Source: Pedobacter frigiditerrae
GTDB taxonomy: Bacteria > Bacteroidota > Bacteroidia > Sphingobacteriales > Sphingobacteriaceae
Reading direction: 5' to 3'
DNA: 64,000 nucleotides
Assembly (NCBI RefSeq): GCF_004331645.1
Contig: NZ_SJSK01000006.1
Span: 248,001-312,000 of the forward strand
A model generated the notes under the pieces. The model did no database searches. It was given only the letters and a program-made list of their open reading frames with translations, and was not told the DNA's origin. Shown piece by piece: positions 20,850 through 37,444 of the stretch; the stretch's first letter is position 1; each line of letters begins with the position of its first letter. A program made the position numbers and the translations under genes.

Positions 20850-20857
20850 TATATTTG
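20850..20857 (+). promoter_or_regulatory. -7 element just upstream of the TauE/SafE start
   Basis: TATATTTG, a full match to TAnnTTTG, ends 5 nt before the ATG at 20863. The -33 box is weak (TTTAG at 20826-20830). The overlapping AAGGAGG at 20843-20849 looks like a Shine-Dalgarno but would lie upstream of the predicted transcription start. Confidence 0.45.
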
Positions 20858-20862
20858 CAGCG

Positions 20863-21699
20863 ATGACGGTTTTACTATTTACCATTATTGTTTTACTAGG
20901 AGCATTTGTTGCTGGACTATTAGGTTCACTAACAGGATTGGGTGGTGGTGTAATCATTATCCCTTTATTAACCTTAGGTTTGGGTGTTGATGTTCATTAC
21001 GCCATAGGAGCTTCAATTATTTCTGTAATAGCGACCTCTTCAGGTTCTGCTGCTGCCTATGTAAAGGAAGGTATAACTAATATTAGGATAGGAATGTTCT
21101 TGGAAATAGCAACAACTATTAGTGCCATTGTAGGGGTTGTAATTGCAACTTATATCAAGGCAGATTATATCATTGTTATTTTTGGATTGATTTTATTGTT
21201 TTCTGCATTTATGATGCTTAGAAAAAAGATAGACCACTCAAACAATGAACAAACCAGCGTTCTTGCTAACTATTTTAAGTTAAATGGCAGTTACCCTGTA
21301 GATGGCCAACAAAAGCAATATGCAGTTCACCACGTGGTTGGTGGTTTTGCAATGATGTTTGTTGCTGGTACCTTATCTGGCTTGTTGGGAATAGGTTCTG
21401 GCGCATTAAAAGTTATAGGGATGGACAACATTATGAAAATCCCTTTCAAAGTCTCTACCACAACCAGTAACTTTATGATGGGTGTAACGGCCGCTGCGAG
21501 TGCGTTGGTTTATTTACATAAAGGTCAGATTGACCCTACTATTGCAATGCCGGTAACAATAGGCGTAATAACTGGGGCAACTATTGGTGCTAAAATTTTA
21601 ATTAGAACCAAAACTGATAAGTTGAAATTAGTTTTCGCAGTAGTGGTGGTGTTTTTGGCTTTACAAATGATTTATAAAGGATTAACCGGCGTAGCATGA
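20863..21699 (+). CDS. TauE/SafE family anion exporter
   Basis: 278 aa with about eight hydrophobic helices in two inverted halves. Each half has the glycine-rich family motif: GLLGSLTGLGGGVIIIPLL near residues 19-37, and GTLSGLLGIGSGALKV in the second half. Members move sulfite, sulfonates or related organic anions, usually outward; substrate cannot be predicted. The stop overlaps the start of the next gene by ATGA, so the two are translationally coupled. The pair lies between rpsJ and rplC with no functional link to translation. Confidence 0.93.
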   Translation: MTVLLFTIIVLLGAFVAGLLGSLTGLGGGVIIIPLLTLGLGVDVHYAIGASIISVIATSSGSAAAYVKEGITNIRIGMFLEIATTISAIVGVVIATYIKADYIIVIFGLILLFSAFMMLRKKIDHSNNEQTSVLANYFKLNGSYPVDGQQKQYAVHHVVGGFAMMFVAGTLSGLLGIGSGALKVIGMDNIMKIPFKVSTTTSNFMMGVTAAASALVYLHKGQIDPTIAMPVTIGVITGATIGAKILIRTKTDKLKLVFAVVVVFLALQMIYKGLTGVA

Positions 21700-22091
21700 G
21701 TAAACAGATAAAACATTATTTAGGTGATAGAGATGTTCAACTCATACTCGGAACCCTGCTTCGTGTTGGTGTGTTGGTGTCTACGGCAATTGTAATTATT
21801 GGGGGTGTTGTTTTTTTATCGACCCAAACAAATCAGATCGTGTCTTTTGAAAGTTTTAAGCCCGAACAAGCAAAATTTTCTTCAGTTGCAGAAATTTTTA
21901 ATGGTTTGAAGAGCGTAGATGGTCTCGCCATTATTCAATTTGGAGTACTGTTATTGATCTTCACGCCAATTGCTAGAGTAGTTTTTTCCATTTTTAGCTT
22001 CTTGATGGAAAAAGATTACATGTATGTGCTCATTGGCATAATCGTATTGTGTGTGATTATCACCAGTTTATATCTAGATATAGCTCATTAA
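21696..22091 (+). CDS. DUF1634 membrane protein
   Basis: 131 aa with three predicted membrane helices: VLVSTAIVIIGGVVFLS, IQFGVLLLIFTPIARVVFSIF and YMYVLIGIIVLCVIITSLYL. The RVGVL..IVIIGG start and LLLIFTPIARV core are the DUF1634 signature. DUF1634 genes are repeatedly found beside TauE/SafE genes, and here the ATGA overlap makes the pairing firm. It probably forms an accessory subunit of the exporter; this rests on gene neighbourhood only. Confidence 0.9.
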   Translation: MSKQIKHYLGDRDVQLILGTLLRVGVLVSTAIVIIGGVVFLSTQTNQIVSFESFKPEQAKFSSVAEIFNGLKSVDGLAIIQFGVLLLIFTPIARVVFSIFSFLMEKDYMYVLIGIIVLCVIITSLYLDIAH

Positions 22092-22165
22092 AGCACTTTT
22101 TAAGACTTTAACTCTAATGCTAAGAAAAATAATCGCAATTATTTGAAATTATTTTGAGCTAACTA

Positions 22166-22196
22166 TTTGAATATTAAGAATTCTTTCCTATTTTTG
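22166..22196 (+). promoter_or_regulatory. Promoter for the rplC-rplQ ribosomal block
   Basis: TTTG at 22166-22169, exactly 19 nt, then TATTTTTG at 22189-22196. This is the best promoter match in the window. CCCTTA follows shortly after, as with rpsL. It lets the rplC block be transcribed independently of rpsJ. Confidence 0.75.
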
Positions 22197-22200
22197 CCCT

Positions 22201-22255
22201 CCCTTAACGGGAATGTATATCCACCTTGAACGAAGCCCTACTGCTTCGATGGGTG
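22201..22255 (+). promoter_or_regulatory. Structured leader upstream of rplC
   Basis: A small CCC/GGG hairpin (22201-22211) is followed by a longer one. In it CACC (22222-22225) pairs with GGTG (22252-22255), an internal loop follows, then CGAAGC (22231-22236) pairs with GCTTCG (22243-22248) around a 6-nt loop. It ends 18 nt before the rplC ATG. L4-type feedback is possible by analogy with the S10 leader of E. coli, but no homology is shown. Confidence 0.45.
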
Positions 22256-22273
22256 TTAAATTTAAAATAGAAA

Positions 22274-22891
22274 ATGTCAGGTATTATTGGAAAAAAAGTA
22301 GGAATGACCAGCATTTTTGACGCCGAAGGAAAGAATATTCCTTGTACGGTGATCGAAGCTGGACCTTGTGTTGTAACACAAGTTAAGACCGAAGAGAAAG
22401 ATGGCTATGTTTCAGTCCAACTGGGATATGATGAAGCCAAAGAAAAAAACACTACTCAGCCTTTAAAAGGTCACTTTGCGAAAGCAAGTACAACTCCAAA
22501 ACGCAAGTTGGTAGAATTCCCTCAGTTCCCTGAGTCACTTAGTTTAGGTGATACAGTAACTGTAGATGTATTCGCTGAAGGCGATTTCGTTGATGTTGTT
22601 GGTACCTCAAAAGGTAAAGGATTTCAAGGTGTAGTTAAACGTCACGGTTTTGGTGGTGTGGGTGGTCAAACTCACGGTCAGCATAACAGGTTGCGTGCAC
22701 CAGGTTCATTGGGTGCTGCGTCTTATCCAGCTCGTGTATTCAAAGGAATGCGTATGGCGGGTAGAACAGGTGGAGACAGAGTAAAAGTTCAAAACTTACA
22801 AGTGTTGAAAGTTTATGCTGAGCAAAACCTTATTGTAGTTAGTGGTTCCATTCCAGGAGCTAAAGGTTCTTACGTAATCTTAGATAAGTAA
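22274..22891 (+). CDS. rplC: 50S ribosomal protein L3
   Basis: 205 aa, standard length. It begins [15 protein letters not shown] and has the core [17 protein letters not shown], the Gln-containing loop [16 protein letters not shown] and [19 protein letters not shown]3 starts 50S assembly and reaches the peptidyl transferase centre with that loop. In this genome it is the first gene of its transcription unit because rpsJ is split off. Its stop is 4 bp from rplD. Confidence 0.98.
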
Positions 22892-22895
22892 GCAG

Positions 22896-23525
22896 ATGGA
22901 AGTTAAAGTAAAAAACATTGCAGGAAAAGAGACAGGTGCCAAGGTGCAACTTCCTGAGTCGGTATTTGGTATTACACCAAGCGACCACGCGATTTATTTA
23001 GATGTAAAACAGTATTTGGCTAACCAACGTCAAGGAACTCACAAATCTAAACAACGTAACGAAATTGCTGGTTCAACCCGCAAGTTATATAAACAAAAAG
23101 GTACAGGCGGTGCACGTGCCGGAAGCATTAAATCTCCATTGTTCAATGGTGGTGGTCGTGTTTTTGGTCCACAGCCAAGAGACTATAGTTTTAAATTGAA
23201 TAAGAAATTAAAATCATTAGCACGTAAATCAGCTTTATCATATAAAGCAATTGATAACAACGTGGTAGTATTAGAAGATTTTACTTTTGATAGCATTAAA
23301 ACTAAAAACTATATCAATTTGGTTAATGCATTAGAATTAGCTGGAGAGAAAACATTGTTAGTTTTGCCTGCACAAAATAATAATATCTATTTATCAAGCA
23401 GAAACATTCAGAAAACTAAAGTTACTACTGCGGATCAGTTAAATACTTATGATGTATTAAACGCAGGTAAACTTTTGTTCACTGCAGATTCGCTTAAAAC
23501 ATTGGAGGAGGCATTTGCCAAGTAA
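22896..23525 (+). CDS. rplD: 50S ribosomal protein L4
   Basis: 209 aa. Typical bacterial L4: [39 protein letters not shown] in the extended loop that lines the exit tunnel, then [24 protein letters not shown] and the Rossmann-like remainder. In E. coli L4 also represses the S10 operon through its leader, so the structured leader upstream of rplC deserves attention. One base separates it from rplW. Confidence 0.98.
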
Positions 23526-23526
23526 T

Positions 23527-23817
23527 ATGGAAATTTTACAAAAACCAATATTAACCGAAAAAGCTTCTGCATTAACTGAAAAAGCTAACCGTTTTACTTT
23601 CAGAGTAGATCACAGAGCTAACAAGTTGCAGATTAAATCGGCCATCGAAAAAATGTACGGAGTTAACATTATTGCCTTAAACACAATGGTTGTTGTAGGT
23701 AAGTTAAAATCTAGAAACACTAAAGGTGGTATCGTATCGGGTCGTAGCCCGAAATATAAAAAAGCTATTGTAACATTGAAAGATGGCGAAACAATAGATT
23801 ATTACGCGAATATTTAA
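23527..23817 (+). CDS. rplW: 50S ribosomal protein L23
   Basis: 96 aa from the ATG at 23527, one base after the rplD stop; an in-frame TTG at 23515 would overlap rplD and is unlikely. The sequence MEILQKPILTEKASAL, RFTFRVDHRANKLQIKSAIEKMYGV and VGRSPKYKKAIVTLKDGETIDY-like C-terminus are typical of L23. The protein sits at the exit of the peptide tunnel and is the docking site for trigger factor and SRP. Confidence 0.97.
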   Translation: MEILQKPILTEKASALTEKANRFTFRVDHRANKLQIKSAIEKMYGVNIIALNTMVVVGKLKSRNTKGGIVSGRSPKYKKAIVTLKDGETIDYYANI

Positions 23818-23840
23818 TAAGAATTGAATAATTTATAACT

Positions 23841-24665
23841 ATGGGCTTAAGAAAATTTAAACCAGTCACTCCGGGAACCCGTTTTAGGGTGGGCGCAAGC
23901 TTTTCGGAGATTACAGCAACCAAGCCCGAAAAATCATTGGTTGTATCTTCTAAGAAATCGGGAGGTCGTAACAATACAGGAAAGATGACAATGCGCTACA
24001 TGGGCGGTGGTCACAAAAAATCTTACCGTTTAATTGATTTTAAACGTGATAAGTTTGATATCCCTGCAACAGTAGCTACTGTTGAGTACGATCCAAACCG
24101 TACCGCTCGTATTGCATTATTGCACTACGTAGATGGCGAGAAGCGTTACATTATTGCTCCTGAGGGATTGCAAGTAGGACAGACAGTGCTTTCGGGTGAC
24201 AAAGCTACTCCAGAAGTAGGTAACACTATGAAATTGGCAAATATTCCTTTGGGATCTATTGTACACAATTTAGAAATTCATCCAGGTAAAGGTGCTCAAT
24301 TGGCACGTAGCGCAGGTGCTTATGCACAGCTTGCGGCTAGAGATGGTAAATATGCAACTATTAAAATGCCATCAGGTGAAGTAAGATCTATCTTAGTTAC
24401 TTGTTTAGCTACGATTGGTGCAGTTTCTAATTCTGATCACGCTAACGAAGTATTAGGTAAAGCAGGACGTAGCCGTTGGTTAGGTCGTCGCCCTAGAACT
24501 CGTCCAGTAGCGATGAATCCAGTGGATCACCCAATGGGTGGTGGTGAAGGTCGCTCTTCAGGTGGTCAACCTCGTTCAAGAAACGGTGTTTACTCTAAAG
24601 GCTTCAAAACCCGCTCACTTAAAAAATACTCAAATCGTTTCATCATAGAGAAAAGGAAGAAATAA
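23841..24665 (+). CDS. rplB: 50S ribosomal protein L2
   Basis: 274 aa, normal length. Landmarks: [52 protein letters not shown], and the C-terminal loop [23 protein letters not shown], which contains the histidine important for peptidyl transfer. The TAA shares one base with the rpsS ATG, so the two genes are tightly coupled. Confidence 0.98.
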
Positions 24666-24931
24666 TGGCTCGTTCGATAAAAAAAGGACCTTATATTGAC
24701 CATAACGTAGAGAAAAAAGTAGTCTCTATGAATGATTCAGGCAAGAAGTCTGTGATCAAAACTTGGTCTCGTAGATCAATGATATCACCAGATTTTGTTG
24801 GTCATACATTTGCAGTACATAACGGTAATAAATTTATACCGGTATACGTAACAGAAAACATGGTTGGTCACAAGCTGGGAGAGTTTGCTCCAACCAGAAC
24901 ATTTAGGGGTCACTCTGATAAAAGAAAATAA
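24665..24931 (+). CDS. rpsS: 30S ribosomal protein S19
   Basis: 88 aa. It begins [19 protein letters not shown] and has the conserved [39 protein letters not shown] blocks. S19 forms part of the 30S head next to S13. It starts on the last base of the rplB stop codon and lies 7 bp before rplV. Confidence 0.98.
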
Positions 24932-24938
24932 TTAAGAG

Positions 24939-25301
24939 ATGGAAGCATTAGCGAAATTAAACAATTGTCCAACCTCACCACGTAAAATGCGTTTGGTTGT
25001 AGATCTAATCAGAGGTGAGCGTGTAGAGAAAGCATTAAGCATTTTAAAGTTTACCAATAAAGAAGCAGCAATAAGAGTTGAAAAACTTTTATTATCAGCT
25101 ATTAAAAATTGGGAAGCTAAAAATGAAGGTTCTCGCCCTGAAGAAAACCAATTATTCGTGAAAACGATAATGGTAGGCGGTGGTCGTCAATTAAAAAGAT
25201 TAAGACCAGCTCCTCAAGGTCGCGGTTATAGAATACGTAAGCGTTCAAACCACGTAACCTTGGTAGTAGATAGTAAGAACGTTGAAACTAAAACTAATTA
25301 A
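24939..25301 (+). CDS. rplV: 50S ribosomal protein L22
   Basis: 120 aa. It has the typical start [19 protein letters not shown], the helical middle [21 protein letters not shown] and the tunnel-lining hairpin with [24 protein letters not shown]. The hairpin residues that give macrolide resistance when deleted elsewhere appear intact. Five bases separate it from rpsC. Confidence 0.98.
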
Positions 25302-25306
25302 CAGAA

Positions 25307-26146
25307 ATGGGACAAAAAGCACATCCAATAGGTAACAGGTTAGGAATCATCAGAGGATGGGATTCTAATTGGTTCGGAGGCAACAACTATGCTGATAAAT
25401 TAGTTGAAGACGAAAAAATAAGAAAATATCTTTCTGCACGTATTGCAAAAGGTGGTGTAGCTAAAGTAGTAATTGAGCGTACGTTAAAACGTATCACTGT
25501 TACTATCCATACAGCTCGTCCAGGTATTGTAATTGGTAAAGCAGGTGCTGAGGTAGATAAAATCAAAGAAGAGTTAAAGAAATTGACTAAAAAGGAAATT
25601 CAAATTAACATTTTCGAGATTAAACGCCCAGAACTTGATGCACAATTAGTTGCAGAAGGTGTTGCAAAACAGTTAGAAGCTAGAATTTCTTTCCGTAGAG
25701 CAATGAAAACCACTATCGCATCAACAATGCGTATGGGTGCAGAAGGTATCAAAATTATGACTTCAGGTCGTTTAGGTGGTGCTGAGATGGCTCGTAGCGA
25801 ACAGTATAAAGAAGGAAGAATTCCTTTGCATACTTTCCGTGCTGATATTGATTATGCATTAGCAGAAGCTTTAACTACTTATGGTAAAATAGGTGTTAAA
25901 GTATGGATCTGTAAAGGTGAAGTTTACGGTAAACGTGATCTTTCTCCAAACATCGGTGCTGCGAGCAATGCTCCAGGTAAAGGTGGCGACAGACCTCAAG
26001 GCGCTTTCGGCGGTAGAGATAACAGAGGTGCTGGCGGAGACAGAAGGAATGACAAACGCCCAGGTGGTGGTCGTCCGGGTCAAGGCGGTGCTGGTGCAGG
26101 AAGAGATAATAAAGGTGGTGGTGCCAACAGAGGTCCACGCAAATAG
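25307..26146 (+). CDS. rpsC: 30S ribosomal protein S3 with Gly/Arg-rich C-terminal extension
   Basis: 279 aa, longer than the 210-235 aa of most S3 proteins. Residues 1-216 are standard: [18 protein letters not shown], the KH domain with [21 protein letters not shown], and [18 protein letters not shown]. Residues 217-279 are a low-complexity tail of Gly, Arg, Asp, Asn and Pro with RDNRG and RDNKG repeats. The tail starts right after [11 protein letters not shown]3 contributes to mRNA entry and helicase activity; a basic disordered tail there could touch mRNA, which is inference. Similar tails may be common in relatives. Confidence 0.97.
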
Positions 26147-26181
26147 TTAACAAGATCGTTTAACGATAATATTAAAATAAA

Positions 26182-26604
26182 ATGTTACAGCCAAAAAGAA
26201 CGAAGTTCAGAAAGATGCAAAAAGGCAGAATGAAAGGTTTAGCAACTCGTGGTGCTGAATTATCATTTGGTTCTTTCGGGATTAAATCTTTAGAGGCAAC
26301 TTGGATTACAAGTCGCCAGATAGAAGCAGCCCGTATTGCGGTAACTCGTTTCATGAAACGTGAAGGTCAAGTTTGGATTAGAATATTCCCGGATAAACCG
26401 GTAACTAAAAAACCAGCTGAGGTACGTATGGGTAAAGGTAAGGGTGCTCCAGAATATTGGGTAGCCGTTGTTAGACCAGGACGTATAATTTTTGAAGCAG
26501 AAGGTGTTCCAATGGAAGTTGCCAAAGAAGCATTAAGACTTGCCGCTCAAAAATTACCAATTCAAACAAAATTTGTAGTACGTAGAGATTACGTAGAAGC
26601 ATAA
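26182..26604 (+). CDS. rplP: 50S ribosomal protein L16
   Basis: 140 aa. It begins [19 protein letters not shown] and contains [26 protein letters not shown]-type text, the conserved [31 protein letters not shown] and the C-terminal helix. L16 organises the aminoacyl-tRNA entry site. A 72-bp gap with a hairpin follows before rpmC, wider than other gaps in this part of the cluster. Confidence 0.98.
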
Positions 26605-26632
26605 AAAAGTTTAGGGATCAATGTTGTAAATA

Positions 26633-26651
26633 ACTTGTTGTTATAACCGCT
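26633..26651 (+). promoter_or_regulatory. Hairpin in the rplP-rpmC gap
   Basis: ATAAC TTGTT GTTAT hairpin, flanked by an outer partial pairing of GTT..GGG (about 26609-26616) with CCC..AAC (about 26654-26661). No T run follows, so it is probably a processing, stability or binding site rather than a terminator. Confidence 0.35.
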
Positions 26652-26676
26652 AGACCCGAACATAAAAATTAATAAA

Positions 26677-26886
26677 ATGAAGAACTCAGAAATCATAGGG
26701 CTTTCACAAGAAGAACTAGTAGCTAAGATTGCAGAAGAAAGAGAAAACTTGGTAAAGTTAAAATTTGCACATACAATTTCGGCTATTGAAAATCCTACCC
26801 GTATCAATAAGGTAAGAAAAGATATTGCCCGATTAAACACTGAATTGACTAAGCTTAAAGCTCAGTCTGCAACTGAAACTAAATAA
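26677..26886 (+). CDS. rpmC: 50S ribosomal protein L29
   Basis: 69 aa, two-helix protein. [41 protein letters not shown] and [16 protein letters not shown], read in order, are the L29 pattern. It sits by the exit tunnel next to L23. It is followed 13 bp later by rpsQ. Confidence 0.97.
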
Positions 26887-26899
26887 CTTTAGAGTCGAA

Positions 26900-27154
26900 A
26901 TGGAAAGACAATTAAGAAAAACAAGAACCGGGTTGGTGGTAAGCAACAAAATGGAAAAATCTATTGTTGTGGCGGTTGAGCGTAAAGTGAAACACCCGAT
27001 CTATGGTAAGTTTGTTAAGAAAACTACCAAATTTATGGCTCATGACGAGAAAAACGAATGTGGTATCGGTGATACTGTATTAATACAAGAAACTCGTCCG
27101 CTGAGTAAAAACAAGAACTGGAGATTAGTACAAATTTTAGAAAGAGCTAAATAA
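26900..27154 (+). CDS. rpsQ: 30S ribosomal protein S17
   Basis: 84 aa OB-fold protein: [42 protein letters not shown] and [23 protein letters not shown]. It binds the 5' domain of 16S rRNA. One base separates its stop from the rplN start. Confidence 0.97.
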
Positions 27155-27155
27155 G

Positions 27156-27524
27156 ATGGTACAACAGGAATCACGATTAAACGTAGCCGATAATAGCGGC
27201 GCAAAACAAGTACTGGTTATCCGTGTGCTTGGTGGAACTGGCAAAAGATATGCTTCTATAGGTGACAAAATTGTTGTTACTGTAAAAAGCGCTTTGCCAT
27301 CTGGTAACATTAAAAAAGGAACAGTTTCTAAAGCAGTTGTAGTAAGAACCAAAAAAGAAATCAGACGTAAGGATGGTTCTTATATTCGTTTTGATGACAA
27401 TGCAGCAGTATTGTTAAATGCACAAGACGAGCCACGTGGTACACGTATTTTTGGCCCGGTTGCAAGAGAGCTGCGTGAAAAACAATTCATGAAAATTGTA
27501 TCATTAGCACCGGAGGTATTATAA
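27156..27524 (+). CDS. rplN: 50S ribosomal protein L14
   Basis: 122 aa, invariant family length. [68 protein letters not shown] and [14 protein letters not shown] are all conserved. L14 lies at the subunit interface and is the target of RsfS in silencing. It ends 1 bp before rplX. Confidence 0.98.
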
Positions 27525-27525
27525 T

Positions 27526-27864
27526 ATGAAAAAAGAAGTAACACAAGCCAAAGTAAAAATCCGTAAAGGAGATTTAGTAAAGGTTATAGCTGGCGATTCA
27601 AAAGGCCAACAAGGTAAAGTACAAGAAGTGCTTGTTGCCAAAAGTAGAGTTATTGTAGAAGGTATTAACCTTGTATCAAAACATACTAAACCAAATGCTG
27701 CTACACCAAATGGTGGTATAATTAAAAAAGAAGCTGCTCTTCATATTTCTAACGTACAGTTAGTTGATCCAAAATCTGGTAAAACTACTCGTGTTGGTCG
27801 TAAATTAAACGCTGACGGAAAATTAGTTAGAGTTGCTAAAATATCAGGGGAGGAAATCAAATAA
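27526..27864 (+). CDS. rplX: 50S ribosomal protein L24
   Basis: 112 aa. The KOW motif is clear ([22 protein letters not shown]), followed by [14 protein letters not shown] and [20 protein letters not shown]. It is an assembly initiator of the 50S subunit. A CGGAGG sequence lies 9 nt before the ATG inside the end of rplN. The TAA shares a base with the rplE ATG. Confidence 0.97.
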
Positions 27865-28430
27865 TGGCATACGTACCAAGATTAAAAAGCAAATATAAAG
27901 AGGAAATTGTAACTGCTCTAAAAGATAAGTTCAATTACAAAAGCATAATGCAAGTTCCTAAATTAGAGAAAATTGCCATCAACCAAGGTGTTGGTCGTTA
28001 TTCTGTAACTGACAAAAAAGTTATGGATAGCTCTATCTTAGAAATGAGTACAATTGCTGGTCAACAAGCTGTAGGTGCAAAATCTAAAAAAGATATCTCA
28101 AACTTTAAATTACGTAAAGGTATGCCAGTTGGTGTAAGAGTAACTTTACGTGATAACAACATGTATGAGTTCTTAGACAGATTAATTTCTGTAGCTTTGC
28201 CTCGTATCCGTGATTTCAAAGGTATCAATGATAAAGGATTTGATGGAAAAGGTAACTATACTTTAGGTATTACTGAACAAATCATTTTCCCAGAGATTAA
28301 CATCGACAAAATCAATAAGATTTTAGGTATGGATATTACGTTTGTAACGTCTGCTACTACTGATGTTGAGGCATTGGAACTTTTAAAACAATTTGGATTA
28401 CCATTTAAAAATCAAAAAACAGAGCAATAA
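27864..28430 (+). CDS. rplE: 50S ribosomal protein L5
   Basis: 188 aa. [56 protein letters not shown] and [12 protein letters not shown] are standard L5 blocks. It binds 5S rRNA and helps form the central protuberance. The stop overlaps the rpsN start by one base. Confidence 0.98.
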
Positions 28431-28699
28431 TGGCAAAAGAAGGTGTAAAAGCTCGCGAAATTAAGCGCCAAAAATTGGTTGCTAAATATGCAGACAAGCG
28501 TGCAGAATTAAAAGCTGCAGGTGATTACGAAGGATTAGATAAGTTACCAAAAAACTCTTCAGCTGTGCGTTTGCACAACCGTTGTAAGTTAACTGGTCGT
28601 CCTCGTGGATACATGCGTACTTTCGGTATATCAAGGGTATTATTCCGCGATATGGCTTTAGCAGGAAAAATTCCTGGAGTTAGAAAAGCTAGCTGGTAA
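28430..28699 (+). CDS. rpsN: 30S ribosomal protein S14 (long, zinc-free form)
   Basis: 89 aa. It begins [24 protein letters not shown]-like and ends with [33 protein letters not shown]. The CxxC-x12-CxxC zinc ribbon of short S14 proteins is absent; only one Cys ([11 protein letters not shown]) remains. This, together with the zinc-free L36, suggests low zinc demand for these ribosomal proteins. After it comes a 159-bp gap with a promoter and a structured RNA candidate, so rpsN is the last gene before an internal start. Confidence 0.97.
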
Positions 28700-28714
28700 T
28701 AAAGAAGTTATAAG

Positions 28715-28746
28715 TTTGGAGTTATAAGTTGTAAGTTGTATTTTTG
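28715..28746 (+). promoter_or_regulatory. Internal promoter upstream of rpsH
   Basis: TTTG at 28715-28718, 20 nt, then TATTTTTG at 28739-28746, followed by CAGCCCTTA. It lies inside the ribosomal cluster, between rpsN and rpsH, and would drive rpsH and the genes behind it. Confidence 0.65.
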
Positions 28747-28800
28747 CAGCCCTTACAGCTTATAGCTCTTTAGCGTATAGCAAAGATTAGAATTTTAACC

Positions 28801-28844
28801 GATAGCAGGTCCCAAAGCTGGGTGGCAGAAAGGATACCACTATC
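28801..28844 (+). promoter_or_regulatory. Structured RNA candidate in the rpsH leader
   Basis: GATAG (28801-28805) pairs with CTATC (28840-28844). After a small CA/A internal loop, GGT (28808-28810) pairs with ACC (28836-28838). Inside, CCCA (28811-28814) and TGGG (28819-28822) form a hairpin with loop AAGC, next to an unpaired TGGCAGAAAGGAT segment. It ends 14 nt before the rpsH ATG. Bulged helices with internal purine-rich loops are the kind of site S8 binds, but this is inference. Confidence 0.5.
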
Positions 28845-28858
28845 ACAATTATATAATA

Positions 28859-29257
28859 ATGAATACAGATCCAATAGCAGATTACCTGACAAGGGTAAGA
28901 AATGCCATTAAGGCAAATCATAGAATCGTTGAGATTCCTGCATCAAACCTTAAAAAGGAAATCACAAAAGTTCTTTTTGACAAAGGTTACATCGCAAACT
29001 ACAAGTTTGAAGACACAACTACTCAAGGCGTTATCAAAATTGCCTTAAAGTACAATGCAATTACTAAAATCTCGGCTATCCGTACATTAACTCGTATCAG
29101 CAAGCCAGGTTTAAGACAATATGCTGGTGTAGAAAACATGCCAAGAGTATTAAATGGTTTAGGTATAGCAATCTTATCTACTTCTAAAGGTGTAATGACC
29201 GATAAAGAAGCAGCCAAATTAAACATTGGTGGTGAGGTATTGTGTCACGTTTATTAA
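28859..29257 (+). CDS. rpsH: 30S ribosomal protein S8
   Basis: 132 aa. MNTDPIADYLTRVRNAIKANHRIVEIPAS, FDKGYIANYKFED and the C-terminal RVLNGLGIAILSTSKGVMTDKEAAKLNIGGEVLCHVY are typical of S8. S8 binds the central domain of 16S rRNA and is the translational repressor of the spc operon in E. coli. Here its own leader contains a promoter and a folded element, so feedback at this site is a reasonable hypothesis. Confidence 0.98.
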   Translation: MNTDPIADYLTRVRNAIKANHRIVEIPASNLKKEITKVLFDKGYIANYKFEDTTTQGVIKIALKYNAITKISAIRTLTRISKPGLRQYAGVENMPRVLNGLGIAILSTSKGVMTDKEAAKLNIGGEVLCHVY

Positions 29258-29272
29258 TAGGAGGATAGCACA

Positions 29273-29830
29273 ATGTCAAGAATAGGAAAAAATCCAATTA
29301 ATGTACCTGCAGGTGTAACTATAACAGTTTCCAAAGAGAACTTAGTAACAGTTAAAGGCCCAAAAGGAGAATTAACTCAAGCAGTAGATGCTGATATCAT
29401 TTTATCTCAAGAAGATGGCGTATTTACGGTAAGTCGTCCAACTGAGCAAAAAAGACATAAAGCCTTACACGGTTTATATCGTTCTTTAATCAATAACATG
29501 GTTGTTGGTGTAACAGATGGTTTTAAAATAGAACAAGAATTAGTTGGTGTGGGTTACCGTGCTACTAACCAAGGTAATACTTTGGATCTAGTTTTAGGTT
29601 ATTCTCACCATTACGTATTCCAGTTACCAGAAGAGATTAAAGTAACCACCACATCTGAAAAAGGTCAGACTCCTAAAATCATTTTAGAGAGTATTGATAA
29701 ACAATTGATAGGTCAAGTAGCAGCAAAAATCCGTTCGTTACGTACTCCAGAGCCATATAAAGGTAAAGGTATCAAGTTTGTTGGTGAAATATTAAGAAGA
29801 AAAGCAGGTAAATCAGCTTCTAAAAAATAA
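29273..29830 (+). CDS. rplF: 50S ribosomal protein L6
   Basis: 185 aa with two similar alpha/beta domains: [60 protein letters not shown] and the C-terminal [30 protein letters not shown]6 lies near the factor-binding site. A perfect AGGAGG (29259-29264) lies right after the rpsH stop and 8 nt before the ATG. Confidence 0.98.
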
Positions 29831-29835
29831 TTAAA

Positions 29836-30189
29836 ATGGCAGGAAAAAAATTATCTCGTAGAGATCGTATAAAAAAAGGTATCAGAAAAAGACTTACTGG
29901 ATCTGAAAGCCGTCCACGTCTATCGGTTTATAGAAGCAATAAAGGTATTTATGCTCAAATCATTAATGATGTAACTGGTAGTACAATAGTTTCAGCATCA
30001 TCTTTATCTAAAGATTTTACTGGTAAAGGAAACAAATCTGATCAGTCGATCGCAGTAGGCAAGTTAATTGCTGAAAAAGCAATTGCAGCTGGTGTTAAAG
30101 AAGTTGTTTTCGACAGAAATGGTTACTTATACCATGGTCGTGTTAAATCGTTGGCAGAAGGTGCTCGCGAGGCTGGTTTAGTATTTTAA
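29836..30189 (+). CDS. rplR: 50S ribosomal protein L18
   Basis: 117 aa: [38 protein letters not shown], then [42 protein letters not shown]. It binds 5S rRNA with L5. Five bases separate it from rplF. Confidence 0.98.
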
Positions 30190-30207
30190 TCTAAGAAATA
30201 GGATAAG

Positions 30208-30726
30208 ATGTCAACTATCAATATAAAAAGAGTTAAGACTAGCGAAATCGAATTGAAAGATCGTTTAGTTAGCATACAACGTGTTGCCAAAGTAACCAAA
30301 GGTGGTCGTACTTTCAGCTTCTCGGCCATTGTGGTTGTTGGAGATGAGCAAGGTGTTGTTGGTTACGGTTTAGGTAAAGCTAAAGAGGTTACTGAAGCAA
30401 TTGCTAAAGGAATTGACGATGCAAAAAAGAACTTGGTTAAAGTTCCAATTTTACATGGTACTGTTCCTCACGAGCAAATCGGTAAATTCTCTGGAGGTTT
30501 TGTTTTAATCAAACCTGCAGCAGTAGGTACTGGTGTAATTGCTGGTGGTGCAATGCGTGCTGTATTAGAGAGTGCTGGTATTCATAACGTACTAGCAAAG
30601 TCAAAAGGTTCATCTAACCCACACAACGTGGTAAAAGCAACAGTAGATGCTTTAACTAAAATGCGTGATGCTTATACAGTAGCACAGCACCGTGGTGTAG
30701 ATTTAAATAAAGTTTTTAACGGATAA
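30208..30726 (+). CDS. rpsE: 30S ribosomal protein S5
   Basis: 172 aa. The N-terminal dsRBD-like domain ([46 protein letters not shown]) is followed by the C-terminal domain ([40 protein letters not shown]). S5 takes part in mRNA entry and decoding fidelity. The residues around GGRTFSFSA, where spectinomycin resistance arises in other bacteria, look normal. Confidence 0.98.
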
Positions 30727-30730
30727 TATC

Positions 30731-30910
30731 ATGGCTAAAATTAAAATTACCCAAATAAAAAGCATTATCGATAGAAGCGAACGCCAAAAAAGAACTATGC
30801 AAGCTTTAGGTTTAAAGAAAATGAACCAAAGTGTAGAAGTTGAGGCTAACGCTGCCATTATTGGGATGGTAAGAAAAGTTAATCACTTAGTAGCTATAGA
30901 GACTATTTAA
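30731..30910 (+). CDS. rpmD: 50S ribosomal protein L30
   Basis: 59 aa, easily missed because of its length. The ATG at 30731 lies 4 bp after the rpsE stop and the frame ends with TAA at 30908-30910. Translation begins MAKIKITQIKSIIDRSERQK and continues TMQALGLKKMNQSVEVE, ending VRKVNHLVAIETI. This is the L30 pattern, with the RTMQALGLKK helix conserved. It sits in its normal place between rpsE and rplO. Confidence 0.96.
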   Translation: MAKIKITQIKSIIDRSERQKRTMQALGLKKMNQSVEVEANAAIIGMVRKVNHLVAIETI

Positions 30911-30915
30911 TTATT

Positions 30916-30997
30916 AAGATATGTTAGCGCAATATTTTGTGTCAACATATCTTTATTTATTTATCGTTGTCCCTGATTAGTGAAAGCGAAGGGCAAC
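30916..30997 (+). promoter_or_regulatory. Two hairpins in the rpmD-rplO gap
   Basis: AAGATATGTT (30916-30925) pairs perfectly with AACATATCTT (30944-30953). A second stem pairs GTTG and CCCT (30966-30974, with a bulged T) with AGGGCAAC (30990-30997). The first is followed by TTATTTATTTAT, a poor terminator tail. They may attenuate or process the message before rplO. Confidence 0.45.
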
Positions 30998-31013
30998 ACA
31001 ACAAGTTTAAAAA

Positions 31014-31460
31014 ATGAACTTAAGTAATTTAAAACCTGCAGCAGGTTCTGTAAAAAAAGTTAAAAGAATTGGTCGTGGTCAAGGTTCTGGTCGTGGTGGT
31101 ACATCTACTCGTGGTCATAAAGGAGCTGGTTCACGTTCTGGTCACAAAACTAAGATTGGTTTTGAGGGTGGTCAGATGCCATTACAACGTCGTGTGCCTA
31201 AAGTTGGTTTCAAACCAATTAACCGTACTGAATATGTAGGTGTGAACTTAGATATTTTACAAGGTTTGGCAGAAAGATTTAACTTAACTACAATTGATTT
31301 TGCTGCTATACAAGAGCACGGTTTAGCTTCTAAAAATGATCTAGTGAAAATCTTAGGTCGTGGTGAAGTTAAAGCTAAATTAGAAGTTACAGCTCATGCG
31401 TTTTCTGCAACTGCACAAAAAGCTATTGAAGCTGCTGGTGGCTCAATTGTAAAATTATAA
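31014..31460 (+). CDS. rplO: 50S ribosomal protein L15
   Basis: 148 aa. The basic, glycine-rich N-terminus ([26 protein letters not shown] read in order) and [23 protein letters not shown] are the L15 signature. The C-terminal domain ends in [13 protein letters not shown]. It is a late 50S assembly protein. It follows a 103-bp gap with two hairpins and precedes secY by 3 bp. Confidence 0.98.
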
Positions 31461-31463
31461 TTA

Positions 31464-32798
31464 ATGAAGAAGCTATTTACTACTTTAAGTAATATTTGGA
31501 AAATACAAGAATTAAAGGAGCGTATTCTTTTTACGTTAATGATTCTTGTTATTTACAGGTTTGTTTGTCAAGTGGTTCTACCTGGTGTAGACCCAGCTCA
31601 ATTAGATAATACTCAAAAAACTGGTATCTTAGGTTTATTAGATATGTTTGCAGGTGGTGCTTTTTCTAAAGTATCAATTGTAGCTTTAGGTGTAATGCCT
31701 TATATCTCTGCATCTATTGTAGTTCAGTTATTGGGTATTGCAGTGCCTACTTTCCAGAAAATGCAAAAAGAAGGAGAGAGTGGCAGAAAAAAATTAACGC
31801 AAATTACTCGTTACCTAACAGTTGCTATCACTGCGGTTCAGGCCGTAGGATATGTTAAAACACAAGTTACACCAGCCGCAATTATTATTGATCCTACATT
31901 ATTTTATGTATTGTCTGGATTTGTATTAACGGCAGGTACTTTGTTTGTAATGTGGTTAGGTGAAAAAATAACCGATAAAGGAATTGGTAATGGTACATCA
32001 TTAATCATTATGGTAGGTATCATTGCTCGTTTACCAGGAGCAATTACACAAGAGTTTAGCTCTGTATTTGCTGGTAACGACGGTGGTTTAATCCGTTTTG
32101 TATTAGAAATCGTTGCTTTGTTTGCAATCATCATGTTCACAATACTTATTGTTCAAGGTGTACGTAAAGTGCCTGTGCAATACGCAAAGAGAATTGTTGG
32201 TAATAAGCAAGTTGGCGGTGTTAGACAATACATTCCGTTAAAAGTTAATGCAGCTGGTGTGATGCCAATTATTTTTGCTCAAGCATTAATGTTTGTGCCA
32301 AATGCTTTAATTGGTTTATTCCCTGAAAAATTAGCTGACAGTTGGTTACATCAGTATACTGATATCACCTCATTAACTTACAGCTTAACATTTGCTTTTT
32401 TAATTATTGCATTTACTTTCTTCTATACTGCAATTACTGTTAACCCAACTCAAATGTCTGATGACATGAAAAAGAATGGTGGTTTTATTCCAGGTATCAA
32501 GCCAGGATTAGCTACTTCATCTTTTATTGATGATGTTATTTCTAAGATTACTTTCCCTGGATCGTTATTCTTGGCAATTATCGCAATTTTGCCATCATTT
32601 GCTGTTAAGGTTGGTATTGCACAAGAGTTCGCTCATTTCTTTGGAGGTACATCACTACTAATTTTAGTAGGTGTTGTATTAGATACTTTGCAACAAGTAG
32701 AAAGTTATTTATTAATGCGTCACTATGATGGATTAATGAAAACAGGTAGAGTTACTGGGCGTACAGGAATTCCTGCGAGCGGTGGAGCTGCATTGTAA
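31464..32798 (+). CDS. secY: Protein translocase subunit SecY
   Basis: 444 aa with ten hydrophobic segments. It has the plug and helix-2 region (GILGLLDMFAGGAFSKVSIVALGVMPYISASIVVQLL), the EKITDKGIGNGTSLIIMVGI loop, the cytoplasmic loop YAKRIVGNKQVGGVRQYIPLKVN and the terminal YDGLMKTGRVTGR tail. It forms the channel of the Sec machinery in the inner membrane. As usual in Bacteroidetes, adk is not between secY and map. Confidence 0.98.
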   Translation: MKKLFTTLSNIWKIQELKERILFTLMILVIYRFVCQVVLPGVDPAQLDNTQKTGILGLLDMFAGGAFSKVSIVALGVMPYISASIVVQLLGIAVPTFQKMQKEGESGRKKLTQITRYLTVAITAVQAVGYVKTQVTPAAIIIDPTLFYVLSGFVLTAGTLFVMWLGEKITDKGIGNGTSLIIMVGIIARLPGAITQEFSSVFAGNDGGLIRFVLEIVALFAIIMFTILIVQGVRKVPVQYAKRIVGNKQVGGVRQYIPLKVNAAGVMPIIFAQALMFVPNALIGLFPEKLADSWLHQYTDITSLTYSLTFAFLIIAFTFFYTAITVNPTQMSDDMKKNGGFIPGIKPGLATSSFIDDVISKITFPGSLFLAIIAILPSFAVKVGIAQEFAHFFGGTSLLILVGVVLDTLQQVESYLLMRHYDGLMKTGRVTGRTGIPASGGAAL

Positions 32799-32806
32799 AA
32801 TAAAGC

Positions 32807-33592
32807 ATGTCAAAAATTTATTATAAATCTCCGGAGGAGATAGAATTAATAAGAGAAAGTTCTTTACTTGTTTCAAAAACCTTAGCTGAAGTTGCTAAGA
32901 TTATTGCACCAGGTGTAACCACTATTGCATTAGATAAGTTAGCTTATGAGTTTATTAGTGATAATGGCGCAGTGCCGGCTTTTTTAAACTATGGTGGTTT
33001 TCCTAATTCATTGTGCATTTCGCCTAATGATCAAGTGGTACATGGATTTCCAAATGAATATGTAATCAAGGAAGGAGATTTAATCTCTGTTGATTGCGGA
33101 GTGATCAAGAATAATTTCTTCGGAGATTCTGCTTACACTTTTTCTATTGGAGAGGTTGATGCTGAAAAGCAAAAGCTAACCAAAGTAACACAAGAGTGCT
33201 TAAACTTTGCAATTGAAAAAGCTGTAGTTGGAATGCGAATTGGTGATATAGCTTTTGCTGTACAACATCACGCAGAAAGCAATGGGTTTGGAGTAGTTAG
33301 AGAACTAGTAGGACATGGTGTTGGGGTTAAGCTTCACGAAAAACCTGAAGTACCAAATTATGGTAAAAGAGGGAACGGCGCAAAGTTAGAGGAAGGAATG
33401 GTTATTGCTATTGAACCAATGATTAATGCAGGAACTGCTGCTGTTAAGTTTTGGTCTGATGGATGGACAGTTACCACCAGAGACAACAAACCTTCTGCAC
33501 ATTTTGAACACACGGTTGCTATCAAAAAGGGGAAAGCAGATGTATTATCGACCTTTTCACTGATTGAAGAAGTTTTAAAAGAAAAAAAGTAA
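32807..33592 (+). CDS. map: Methionine aminopeptidase, type I
   Basis: 261 aa. The pita-bread fold metal ligands are in place: VDCGVIKNNFFGDSAYTF (the two Asp), ELVGHGVGVKLHEKPEVPNYG (His and the substrate-contact His), EGMVIAIEPMIN (Glu) and HFEHTVAI (final Glu). It removes the initiator methionine in the cytoplasm. It follows secY by 8 bp and precedes infA. Confidence 0.97.
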   Translation: MSKIYYKSPEEIELIRESSLLVSKTLAEVAKIIAPGVTTIALDKLAYEFISDNGAVPAFLNYGGFPNSLCISPNDQVVHGFPNEYVIKEGDLISVDCGVIKNNFFGDSAYTFSIGEVDAEKQKLTKVTQECLNFAIEKAVVGMRIGDIAFAVQHHAESNGFGVVRELVGHGVGVKLHEKPEVPNYGKRGNGAKLEEGMVIAIEPMINAGTAAVKFWSDGWTVTTRDNKPSAHFEHTVAIKKGKADVLSTFSLIEEVLKEKK

Positions 33593-33611
33593 AAAAGTAA
33601 AAATTTTTATT

Positions 33612-33619
33612 TAATTTTG
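33612..33619 (+). promoter_or_regulatory. Candidate -7 element before infA
   Basis: TAATTTTG at 33612-33619 followed by CAACCCT, similar to the rpsL and rpsH starts. No good TTTG lies 19-20 nt upstream; the region there is A-rich. It could add transcription of infA and the alpha genes. Confidence 0.4.
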
Positions 33620-33663
33620 CAACCCTGTTTAATACAAGCTAATTAAGTAAAAATCAATATTAT

Positions 33664-33882
33664 ATGGCTAAACAAGCCTCAATTGAACAAGACGGAGTAA
33701 TAAGAGAAGCATTATCTAATGCTATGTTTCGAGTAGAACTTGAAAATGGCCACGAGATTATTGCTCACATTTCAGGAAAGATGAGGATGCATTACATCAA
33801 AATTCTTCCTGGAGACAAAGTTAAATTAGAGATGTCGCCTTACGATTTATCAAAAGGCAGGATTACTTATAGATATAAATAA
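33664..33882 (+). CDS. infA: Translation initiation factor IF-1
   Basis: 72 aa, the invariant length. The OB fold shows [39 protein letters not shown] in order, then [31 protein letters not shown]. It blocks the A site during initiation. It is followed after 1 bp by rpmJ. Confidence 0.98.
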
Positions 33883-33883
33883 A

Positions 33884-34000
33884 ATGAAAGTTAGGTCATC
33901 AATTAAAAAACGTAGCGCTGATTGTAAGATTATTCGTCGTAAAGGTAAACTTTACGTGATTAACAAAAAAAATCCAAAATATAAGCAACGTCAAGGGTAA
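33884..34000 (+). CDS. rpmJ: 50S ribosomal protein L36 (zinc-free form)
   Basis: 38 aa; ATG at 33884, one base after the infA stop, TAA at 33998-34000. Translation begins [20 protein letters not shown] and ends [13 protein letters not shown], a full L36. Of the zinc ligands of standard L36 (C11, C14, C27, H33), only C14 is kept; the others are S11, N27 and Y33. Metal binding of the usual kind is therefore impossible. No second, zinc-type copy is visible in the window. Confidence 0.96.
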
Positions 34001-34013
34001 TTAAGAAATATTG

Positions 34014-34053
34014 TAATGTACCGTACAACGGTGGCCCGCCGTTCGGAATTACT
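34014..34053 (+). promoter_or_regulatory. Hairpin in the rpmJ-rpsM gap
   Basis: Outer pairing GTAAT / ATTAC and inner pairing AACGG / CCGTT (around TGGCCCG) with CC / GG between them, in the 70-bp space before rpsM. It has no T tract. A site for S4- or S13-type feedback on the alpha genes is possible. Confidence 0.4.
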
Positions 34054-34070
34054 TAAAATTATAAATAAAT

Positions 34071-34448
34071 ATGGCAAGGATTTCAGGTATTGATTTACCA
34101 AGAAACAAAAGAGGTGAAATCGGACTAACTTATATCTACGGTATAGGAAGACAAACTGCTCAGAACATTTTAACTGAGGCAGGTATCGATTTTAACAAAA
34201 AAGTACAAGACTGGTCAGATGACGAATTGTCGGCTATTCGTACAATCATTAACGATGGAATTAAAGTAGAAGGTGCTTTACGTTCTGAGGTTCAATTAAA
34301 CATCAAACGTTTAATGGATATCGGTTGTTACCGTGGTTTACGTCACAGAAAAGGTTTACCTGTTCGTGGTCAACGTACAAAAAACAATTCTCGTACTCGT
34401 AAAGGAAAGAGAAAAACAGTTGCTAATAAGAAAAAAGCTACTAAATAA
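34071..34448 (+). CDS. rpsM: 30S ribosomal protein S13
   Basis: 125 aa. [34 protein letters not shown], the helical middle and the basic tail [23 protein letters not shown] are typical. S13 contacts the P-site tRNA and the large subunit. Unlike the tight packing of the spc genes, the alpha genes here are separated by 70-110 bp gaps, each with a hairpin. Confidence 0.98.
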
Positions 34449-34456
34449 TAAATGAT

Positions 34457-34477
34457 AAATAACCCTTGTGGTTATTT
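34457..34477 (+). promoter_or_regulatory. Hairpin in the rpsM-rpsK gap
   Basis: AAATAACC (34457-34464) pairs perfectly with GGTTATTT (34470-34477) around a 5-nt loop. No T tract follows. Confidence 0.4.
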
Positions 34478-34556
34478 GGAACAAATTAATTTAAATGGTT
34501 AATGGGTCCGGGTTATTCGCTAATCCAGTAATTCACTAACTTATTATTAAAGCAAA

Positions 34557-34946
34557 ATGGCTAAAAGTAAAAAAGTTACCAAAAAACGTATAGTTGTTAT
34601 TGAGTCTGTAGGTCAGGCTCACATCAATGCTACGTTCAACAACATCATTGTTACTTTAACAAACAATAACGGTCAGACTATTTCATGGTCGTCTGCAGGT
34701 AAAATGGGATTTAAAGGTTCTAAAAAGAACACTCCATACGCTGCTGGCCAAGCTGCATCTGATTGCGGTAAAGTAGCATTTGACTTAGGTCTACGTAAGG
34801 TAGAGGTATTTGTTAAAGGTCCAGGTTCAGGCCGTGAGTCTGCAATCAGAACTTTACAAGTTGCAGGTATCGAAGTGACTTCTATTAAAGATATCACTCC
34901 GCTTCCACACAATGGATGTCGTCCTCCTAAGAAAAGAAGAGTTTAA
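34557..34946 (+). CDS. rpsK: 30S ribosomal protein S11
   Basis: 129 aa: [49 protein letters not shown] in order, then [45 protein letters not shown]11 is part of the platform and contacts the Shine-Dalgarno helix in other bacteria. In Bacteroidetes the platform is known to sequester the anti-Shine-Dalgarno, so this region is functionally interesting. Confidence 0.98.
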
Positions 34947-34954
34947 TTAATTAT

Positions 34955-35002
34955 TTTTAAAGCTAAGAGTCTCCCGATTTAAGTTGGGAAGATACTTTAA
35001 AA
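34955..35002 (+). promoter_or_regulatory. Hairpin in the rpsK-rpsD gap
   Basis: TTTTAAAG (34955-34962) pairs with CTTTAAAA (34995-35002), and inside it TCCC (34972-34975) pairs with GGGA (34986-34989). It ends 12 nt before the rpsD ATG. S4, the product of rpsD, represses the alpha operon in E. coli. Confidence 0.4.
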
Positions 35003-35014
35003 TCAAAAACAACA

Positions 35015-35623
35015 ATGGCAAGATATACCGGACCAAAGTCCAAAATAGCCCGTAAGTTCAGAGAGCCAATTTTCGGCCCTGACAAAGTATTAGACAGAAA
35101 AAATTATCCTCCAGGCCAACATGGCGCTTCTAAAAGAAGAGGAAAACAATCTGAGTATGCTGTACAGTTAATGGAGAAACAAAAAGTAAAATATACTTAT
35201 GGTGTATTAGAAAAACAATTTCGTAACCTGTTCACTAAAGCTTCATCTCGCGAAGGTATTACTGGTGATAACTTGTTGCAATTGTTAGAAGCACGCTTGG
35301 ATAACACAGTATACAGACTAGGTATTGCTCCAACCCGTTCAGGTGCACGTCAATTGGTTAGCCACAAACACGTAACTGTAAATGGTGAGGTTGTAAATAT
35401 TCCATCATATCAATTAAGAGCTGGTGATGTAGTTGCAGTACGTGATAAATCTAAATCATTAGAGGCAATCACTACTTCTGTTGCGGGAAGAGTAATCAAT
35501 AAGTTCAATTGGTTAGATTGGAATGCAAGTGAGTTATCAGGTAAGTTTTTAGCTTATCCTAACCGTGATGAGATCCCAGAAAACATTAAAGAGAATCTTA
35601 TAGTAGAGTTATACTCTAAGTAA
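35015..35623 (+). CDS. rpsD: 30S ribosomal protein S4
   Basis: 202 aa. [51 protein letters not shown], the S4 RNA-binding domain ([39 protein letters not shown]) and the C-terminal [12 protein letters not shown] are normal. The N-terminal zinc Cys cluster of some S4 proteins is absent. S4 nucleates 30S assembly. Confidence 0.98.
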
Positions 35624-35701
35624 TAAATTTTGTTAAAGCCCAAGTGGCTTTAACTTTTTTACGTTACACATTATTCATATAACGATCTAAAAACATTATA
35701 A

Positions 35702-36694
35702 ATGGCAATTTTAGCATTTCAGAAACCAGATAAGGTAATCATGCAGAAATCAACGGATTTCGATGGTCAATTCGAATTTCGTCCTTTAGAGCCCGGTTTC
35801 GGTGTAACAATTGGTAACGCCTTGAGAAGAATTTTACTTTCTTCTTTAGAAGGTTTTGCTATTACAAGTATTCGTTTTTCAGGCGTTTCTCACGAATTCT
35901 CTACAATGAAAGGTGTTGTAGAAGATTTAACAGAAATCATCTTAAATTTAAAACAAGTTCGTTTTAAAAAAGTTGGTGATTCTGGAGATTCAGAAAAAGT
36001 ATTCATTATTGTAAACGGTCAAGATCAATTCTTGGCTGGAGACATTACAAAATTCTCTAACAACTTTGAGGTTTTAAACCCTGATTTTGTTATCTGTAAC
36101 ATGGAGAAATCAGTAACTTTAGAGGTAGAATTAACTATCAATAAAGGTCGTGGTTATGTTCCTGCAGAAGAGAATAAAATTACTGATACAGTTGTTGGTG
36201 TAATCGCTATCGATTCGATTTTCACCCCAATGAAAAATGTAAAATACACGATTGAAAACTATCGTGTTGAGCAAAAAACAGATTACGAGAAATTAATTTT
36301 AGATATTTCTACTGATGGATCTATCCACCCAGAAGAAGCTTTAAAAGAAGCAGCTAAAATTTTGATCCAACACTTTATGTTATTCTCTGATGAGAACCTA
36401 GTATTAGAATCTCAAGCGAAAGAGGAAACTAAAGAAGTTGATGAAGAAATTTTACACATGCGTAAAATCCTTAAAACAGAATTGGTTGATTTAGATCTTT
36501 CAGTTCGTGCTTTAAACTGCTTAAAAGCAGCGGATATTCGCACTTTAGCTGATTTAGTTTCTTATGATGTTGCTGATATGTTAAAATTCAGAAACTTCGG
36601 TAAAAAATCTTTAACTGAAATTCAAGAATTGGTAAAATCTAAACAATTATCGTTTGGAATGAACCTTTCTAAATTCAAGTTAGACGAAGAATAA
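35702..36694 (+). CDS. rpoA: RNA polymerase subunit alpha
   Basis: 330 aa. N-terminal domain: [34 protein letters not shown] (dimerisation and beta contacts), [16 protein letters not shown]-terminal domain: [44 protein letters not shown], the helix-hairpin-helix that contacts UP elements and activators. A 136-bp gap before rplQ holds no clear promoter or terminator. Confidence 0.98.
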
Positions 36695-36830
36695 AAACAG
36701 TTTTCAGTTTTGAGTTTGCAGTTGTGAAATTGTGCTCAAGGCTCGGAATATAATATTAATTAAATATTCACTGTGTATAATTCCCTCAGATTAAGTTCAA
36801 AGAGACGGTATACACTTTACAAAACAAAAA

Positions 36831-37421: not shown

Positions 37422-37444
37422 TTTTTAAATTAACTATAAAATAT

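Follow-up and report, generated by a model that had tools for sequence, protein, structure and literature searches.

The 64,000 nucleotides of Pedobacter frigiditerrae DNA analysed here (the window) contain a 44-nt RNA element in the 159-nt spacer between rpsN and rpsH, the gene for ribosomal protein S8. The features of this locus are collected in Table 1. The product of rpsH has PDB matches to uS8 (down to 1.7e-60) and is 91-98% identical to the S8 proteins of the Pedobacter contigs among the matches listed. The names of the other genes were assigned by eye from their translations.

Table 1. Features of the rpsN-rpsH locus, in window coordinates.
Feature	Position	Strand	Remark
rpsN	stop at 28699		upstream neighbour of rpsH
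Long inverted-repeat hairpin	28707..28781	+	surrounds the promoter-like site
Promoter-like TTTG-N20-TATTTTTG	28715..28746	+	inside the long hairpin; lineage-specific
S8-site-like leader element, whole	28801..28844	+	bulged helix GATAG-CA-GGT ... ACC-A-CTATC
P1 helix, 5' strand GATAG	28801..28805	+	pairs with 28840-28844; compensating changes in relatives
Core, 5' strand AGGUC	28807..28811	+	corresponds to A595-C599 of 16S helix 21
Variable apical segment, usually a hairpin	28812..28832	+	4 to 38 nt in relatives
Core, 3' strand GAUACC	28833..28838	+	corresponds to G639-U644; 28836 is A642
P1 helix, 3' strand CTATC	28840..28844	+	covariation with the 5' strand
AU-rich link to the rpsH ATG, 14 nt	28845..28858	+	unpaired in the fold of 28700-28861
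rpsH (ribosomal protein S8)	28859..29257	+	gene of the proposed ligand, first regulated gene

The element was compared with its relatives in several partly overlapping samples. Upstream regions of rpsH were read from 110 loci, and sets of 30, 16 and 20 genomes were chosen by hand, the last of these for 16S rRNA. Alignment A2 has 58 rows from Sphingobacteriaceae and Flavobacteriaceae, aligned from sequence alone in one register; 52 of its rows passed a filter asking for four of the five P1 pairs and six were added by eye. This filter missed L008, L091, L094 and L109, which were added to A2 by hand, and L098 and L106 were also measured. Alignment A3, with 82 distinct rows, was fitted to the structure. 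Finally, a parser that asked for three of the five P1 pairs returned 142 elements. All three samples lean to pairing through the way their rows were chosen, though the filter and the parser dropped few. The parser read all of L002-L069 except L068 and all of L114-L169; the window's own locus (L005) is among the 142 and its copy L113 is not. The loci L113-L169 had been fetched as model matches, so the 142 of 196 loci parsed cannot be taken as a prevalence.

A sequence-only reading of this DNA had proposed a bulged helix 14 nt before the rpsH start codon, and this helix is indeed there. Its place is nearly fixed: P1 lies 13-19 nt from the rpsH ATG in all 142 parsed elements, with a mode of 14, where the parser allowed 9-23. 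The length from P1 to P1 ranges from 27 to 61 nt in relatives, and P1 itself is formed by all five pairs in 121 of the parsed elements, by four in 7 and by three in 14. The inner CCCA/TGGG hairpin that was also proposed is not conserved, as relatives form other apical hairpins, e.g. GCC-GGGU-GGC in several Pedobacter loci. Among the 139 apical segments that are at least 8 nt long, 120 nevertheless fold with three or more pairs. The apical hairpin, at 28817-28826 in the window, closes on a GGGU or GAGU loop in a number of loci from both families, e.g. L004, L032, L123 and L131.

The resemblance to a known protein-binding site lies in the core. The published core of the S8 site, in the accessible part of the source, consists of A595-(A596-U644), (G597-C643)-U641 and an invariant A642, with any nucleotide at position 641 in natural sites (PMC4176348). 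The same portion of that paper has a conserved serine and a peptide of S8 contacting A642, and the stretch STSKGVMTD in the S8 of the window corresponds, when matched by eye, to this region. The sequence-only reading had suggested a comparison with 16S helix 21, and the two cores agree position by position. Strand order, A595, G597-C643, U598, A640, C599-G639, U641 and A642 are identical in the leader and in helix 21 of the same genome. The pair 596-644 is G-C in the leader and A-U in its own helix 21, where the 3' strand reads GAUACU. Judged from these letters, the leader and the 16S rRNA differ in their pairs by compensation and are the same in their unpaired contacts.

These features are shared widely among the relatives. 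A595, G596, G597, U598, A640, A642, C643 and C644 are invariant in A2; with A595 fixed and the pair 596-644 kept, the triple that they make in the S8 site is itself inferred from sequence only. In A3 both G597-C643 and U598-A640 occur in 82 of 82 rows, and the parser required G597 and C643. At 596-644 the parser demanded a standard or A-C pair and found G-C in 137 leaders, A-C in 3 and A-U in 2 (L187 and L191, both from family f4), whereas all 18 Bacteroidota 16S loci that we read have A-U. Position 641 is A in 129 of the 142 leaders and otherwise U, against U in the 18 16S loci. Position 599 changes only jointly with 639, and the pair is U-A in 61 of the 142 leaders. Flanking helices are present on both sides of the core, with covariation in P1 and usually a hairpin at the apex. 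The leaders usually have a mismatch at 594/645, where the 16S and E. coli sites that we read have a pair. The sequence-only reading had also closed the inner helix with U-A642, whereas in the S8 site U598 pairs with A640 and A642 is free. RNAalifold likewise gives U598 the partner A642; A640 is the partner in the single-sequence fold of the element and in the S8 site, and A642 is then free.

The leader model R1, described below, did not have the 16S rRNA of its own genome among its 12 matches at E-values up to 10, and the resemblance to helix 21 was therefore tested with a descriptor, made of the S8-site core and a five-pair helix. It was derived from the published core, but at a time when the element was already known. 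Seventeen of the 20 hand-chosen genomes gave a 16S match. Eighteen 16S loci were read, that of the window's genome included, and in the 17 on which the descriptor was run it picked out helix 21, at the same 16S position, every time. Over both strands of the window it matches perfectly at one place only, the element. Ten shuffled plus strands held between 0 and 3 such matches (mean 1.0), so that a single match is no surprise and the weight rests on conservation. Of the 70 loci in the Sphingobacteriaceae set, 69 show the element with this descriptor, where 0.98 are expected from dinucleotide shuffles; these counts keep duplicates, e.g. L019 and L033 are one contig. Two of five flavobacterial loci (0.12 expected) and 9 of the 29 loci L170-L198 (0.64 expected) also match, with three of these nine off the usual place (L177, L180 and L183).

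Covariation gives a further view of the same helix. In A2, 98.3% of the cells pair and 30 are double changes, compared with 5.3 in shuffles, and partners slid along the alignment are at most 49.2% paired. In A3, 97.6% of the cells pair, with 81 double changes compared with 21.0. One measure, the number of pairs with changes on both sides, is unexceptional (reached by 44 of 500 shuffles for A2 and 327 of 500 for A3); the remaining covariation measures were reached by at most 4 of 500 in either alignment. Alignment cells count sequences and not events, and for this reason we traced the types of each pair over a tree built from 140 rpsH genes. Double changes that keep the pairing number 1.0, 7.6, 4.6, 10.4 and 7.3 for the five pairs of P1, about 31 in total, whereas two controls with slid partners total 2.3 and 1.5. 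Within the core there are two such events at 599-639 and one at 596-644. The fourth and fifth P1 pairs also lose their pairing, about 7.0 and 12.7 times. The covariation that the sequence-only reading had named as a check is thus found.

The folding energy of the element is ordinary (z -0.49; equalled or exceeded in stability by 57 of 200 shuffles), and we dropped it as support. The element stands above chance through conservation and covariation, not through fold energy or its lone match in the window.

The distribution of the element was charted with two models, in genomes grouped into families. Family f1 is inferred to be Sphingobacteriaceae because it holds the genome of the window. Family f4 appears to be Flavobacteriaceae, an inference from rpsH: when 46 of its loci were compared with 16 named ones, 42 had an rpsH closest to that of Flavobacterium, Winogradskyella or Subsaxibacter, and the other four to that of a Cyclobacteriaceae MAG. 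The model R1 was built from the 58 aligned sequences, which already included five flavobacterial ones, and gave a single match in each of 38 genomes (11 in f1, 26 in f4, and G120) out of 395 spread over the phylum. R2, built from 84 matches, found 44 of the 395 (11 in f1 and 33 in f4). In the two families themselves it matched 158 of 201 f1 genomes and 119 of 249 f4 genomes, nearly always once; second matches, of unassigned position with respect to rpsH, occur only in G090, G538, G690 and G436. Both families are represented in the models, and these counts are therefore prevalences and not independent proof. The same holds for the window, where the leader model scores 67 bits at 28795-28848 and 14 bits at the next best place, as the model contains this sequence.

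The link to rpsH is close to complete. Located model matches adjoin this gene in 30 of 30, 27 of 27 and 22 of 22 cases (78 distinct genomes, including that of the window), the 22 being Pedobacter genomes with coordinates for both rpsH and the match. Among the 79 genomes with a located match the one exception is G120, of family f22. Its R1 match is weak (E 0.014) and does not share a contig with its rpsH, and R2 did not report it; we rejected it as a false positive. The spacer is otherwise variable in Sphingobacteriaceae (in L064 only 9 nt precede the modelled element), and the element keeps its place. The sequence-only reading would have been refuted had the spacer been absent in close relatives; instead the element is kept beside rpsH in two families.

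Some members of these families lack a recognizable copy. Reading model-negative genomes at rpsH nevertheless turned up the element in 10 of 18 from f4 and 2 of 7 from f1, while it was not seen in the other 8 and 5; G510, with only a weak match (2.9e-4), was excluded from the genomes inspected. It was not seen before rpsH in L068, a MAG close to Sphingobacteriaceae. The absences within f1 and f4 indicate that the element is dispensable. At the usual place it was found in none of 35 loci and none of 19 genomes of other families.

Upstream of the element, the spacer holds a second structure. The fold of 28700-28861 has a z-score of -4.31, with none of 200 shuffles as stable, which fits the upstream hairpin. 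This hairpin surrounds a TTTG-N20-TATTTTTG site, a pattern that we take to be the Bacteroidetes promoter consensus. The sequence-only reading had placed a good promoter ahead of the helix. A promoter-like site does lie there, yet no more than 24 of 70 loci, that of the window among them, have TAnnTTTG between the rpsN stop and the element, and a sigma-70 scan found no site inside the rpsN-rpsH spacer. In the window this site may place the element at the head of a transcript led by rpsH. The element probably also works within a longer operon mRNA, since 46 of the 70 loci have no TAnnTTTG. Many relatives carry inverted repeats of unrelated sequence in this spacer. In loci of the Sphingobacterium type (L049, L054, L056, L066, L069, L099, L122 and L128) TAnnTTTG overlaps the 5' arm of a terminator-like hairpin, as if read-through were stopped while a new transcript started.

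Other structures were seen near rpsH in further relatives. In family f8 an S8-site-like element, GTAYC-xA-GGTC..GAAACC-R-GRTAA, lies 81-89 nt upstream of rpsH (L226, L177, L251, L256 and L268), and in L226 and L177 it precedes a TAnnTTTG-like site; L246 has a degenerate copy. It occurs in 5 of 33 loci where 0.3 are expected. L226 and L177 prompted the search, which leaves 3 of 29 newly fetched loci. This is possibly a third arrangement of S8 control. The Hymenobacter-like spacers of L081, L086, L092 and L228 share TTTGGCAGGTTGCC(G/A)AAAGAAACCAT(G/T)GGCC upstream of a promoter-like TTATCTTTGCG, a stretch that is like the S8 core but has no matching P1. A conserved GGCAGGTTGCC...GAAACC in Hymenobacter-like loci resembles the core, but no matching P1 was found and it was not counted. 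A different hairpin, AATTAT(C/T)C..GATAACATATAAA, stands directly before rpsH in Bacteroidota MAGs (L080, L088, L089, L095, L097, L100-L103, L107 and L110).

The closest known system is the S8 operator of the E. coli spc operon (rplX-rplE), which has the core of the leader and the ligand and logic proposed for it. A circularly permuted form of our descriptor finds this operator at rplE +6 to +84, with the core GAAACU / CAAGUC and A641. It puts A595 at rplE +80, in agreement with the A+80-(A+81-U+11) given in the accessible part of PMC4176348. The E. coli operator lies in coding sequence at the start of rplE and is permuted relative to helix 21, whereas the Pedobacter leader is non-coding, in the 5' UTR before rpsH, and keeps the strand order of helix 21. 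The permuted descriptor found nothing at rplE in positions 20000-38000 of the window, where its one match is at 22375-22411. What is new relative to E. coli is a proposed S8 operator that is unpermuted, non-coding and at rpsH instead of rplE.

Structured leaders before ribosomal protein genes are known from the same phylum. Eckert and Weinberg (2020) reported 20 r-leaders, including those of L13, S4, S15 and S16 in Bacteroidia or Flavobacteria; in the portion available to us none of the 20 has S8 as its ligand, and the main text has neither 'uS8' nor 'rpsH' (PMC7247131). The term 'rpsH' is likewise absent from the accessible parts of PMC2864571, PMC8040213 and PMC11109978. Within the available text, the only S8 case named in PMC2704228 is that of E. 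coli, and PMC7160235 concerns other RNAs. At gathering score, Rfam 15 has no match at the element in the window and none in 18 related loci. Twelve matches below this score were set aside as chance, being mostly microRNA precursors on the upstream hairpin, together with msr, preQ1-II, snoU36a and ssnA. Elsewhere in the window, on the minus strand, there is a Flavo-1 RNA (RF01705; 55943-56021, 48.4 bits). The element is undescribed in the literature searched, as far as titles and the starts of abstracts among the matches listed can tell. Subscription papers and supplements, including the motif tables of PMC8040213, lay outside this search, so that an earlier mention is possible.

The element is very probably an autogenous S8 operator that blocks the translation of rpsH, where binding and repression are inferred and not measured. 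The sequence-only reading had offered a ribosomal-protein-binding RNA, and this idea is supported by sequence comparison, without binding data: the determinants that S8 recognises in helix 21 and in the E. coli spc operator are present in the core, and the element adjoins rpsH in two families. We infer that S8 in excess of 16S rRNA would bind the helix on its own mRNA, hold it folded near the start codon and so keep the 30S subunit off rpsH. In Bacteroidetes, Shine-Dalgarno pairing is rarely used. The simplest mechanism would be steric, with bound S8 fixing the helix within the 30S footprint. Production from the tightly packed downstream genes, rplF, rplR, rpsE onward, may drop too, by translational coupling or mRNA decay. 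This spread is modelled on the E. coli spc operon and is the least certain step.

S8 might bind and yet have its main effect on transcription, or on the decay of the upstream mRNA or of the entire message, instead of on rpsH initiation. This is unlikely; it shares S8 binding with translational repression and does not exclude it. The accessible part of PMC10931766 describes retroregulation of upstream genes as a further effect of S8 in E. coli. Moreover, the similar site in f8 precedes promoter-like sequence, 81-89 nt from rpsH. On the other hand, the element keeps an almost fixed distance from the ATG in both main families, and the 14 nt between element and ATG in the window are too short for a terminator.

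It is harder still to credit a conserved element for translation or mRNA stability to which S8 does not bind, e.g. a hairpin with a standby or protective role. A place immediately ahead of the start codon would suit it, the apical part varies freely and no binding data exist, but it leaves unexplained why the fixed nucleotides, A642 and A595 among them, are those of the S8 site and why the element is tied to rpsH. We give practically no credence to the idea that a bulged helix in an AT-rich spacer merely resembles the site by chance. The ordinary fold energy would allow it, as would the rate of perfect descriptor matches, roughly one in each shuffled strand of 64 kb, whereas one fixed place, repeated compensating change in two families and the count of 69 in 70 loci would not. 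A mobile repeat was rejected, as the spacer matches once in its own genome and not at all in the plasmid collection. The points that do count against translational repression by S8 are the lack of binding and expression data, the folding energy, the mismatch at 594/645, the absences within the families and the descriptor written after the fact. None of them favours another ligand.

Pedobacter, Flavobacterium and their relatives probably use this leader to lower the production of S8 when there is sufficient. With more modest confidence, we propose that two Bacteroidota families control their spc genes by an S8 operator with an origin separate from that of the enterobacterial operator, with the same core, the opposite strand topology, and a site at rpsH in place of rplE, which puts S8 at the head of a control unit of its own. 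In part of f8, the site would then have moved, or arisen again, upstream of a promoter-like site. This compact and testable candidate operator is found in 277 of 450 genomes, one per species, in the two families searched, and the same protein apparently reads one RNA core in two circular permutations at two genes.
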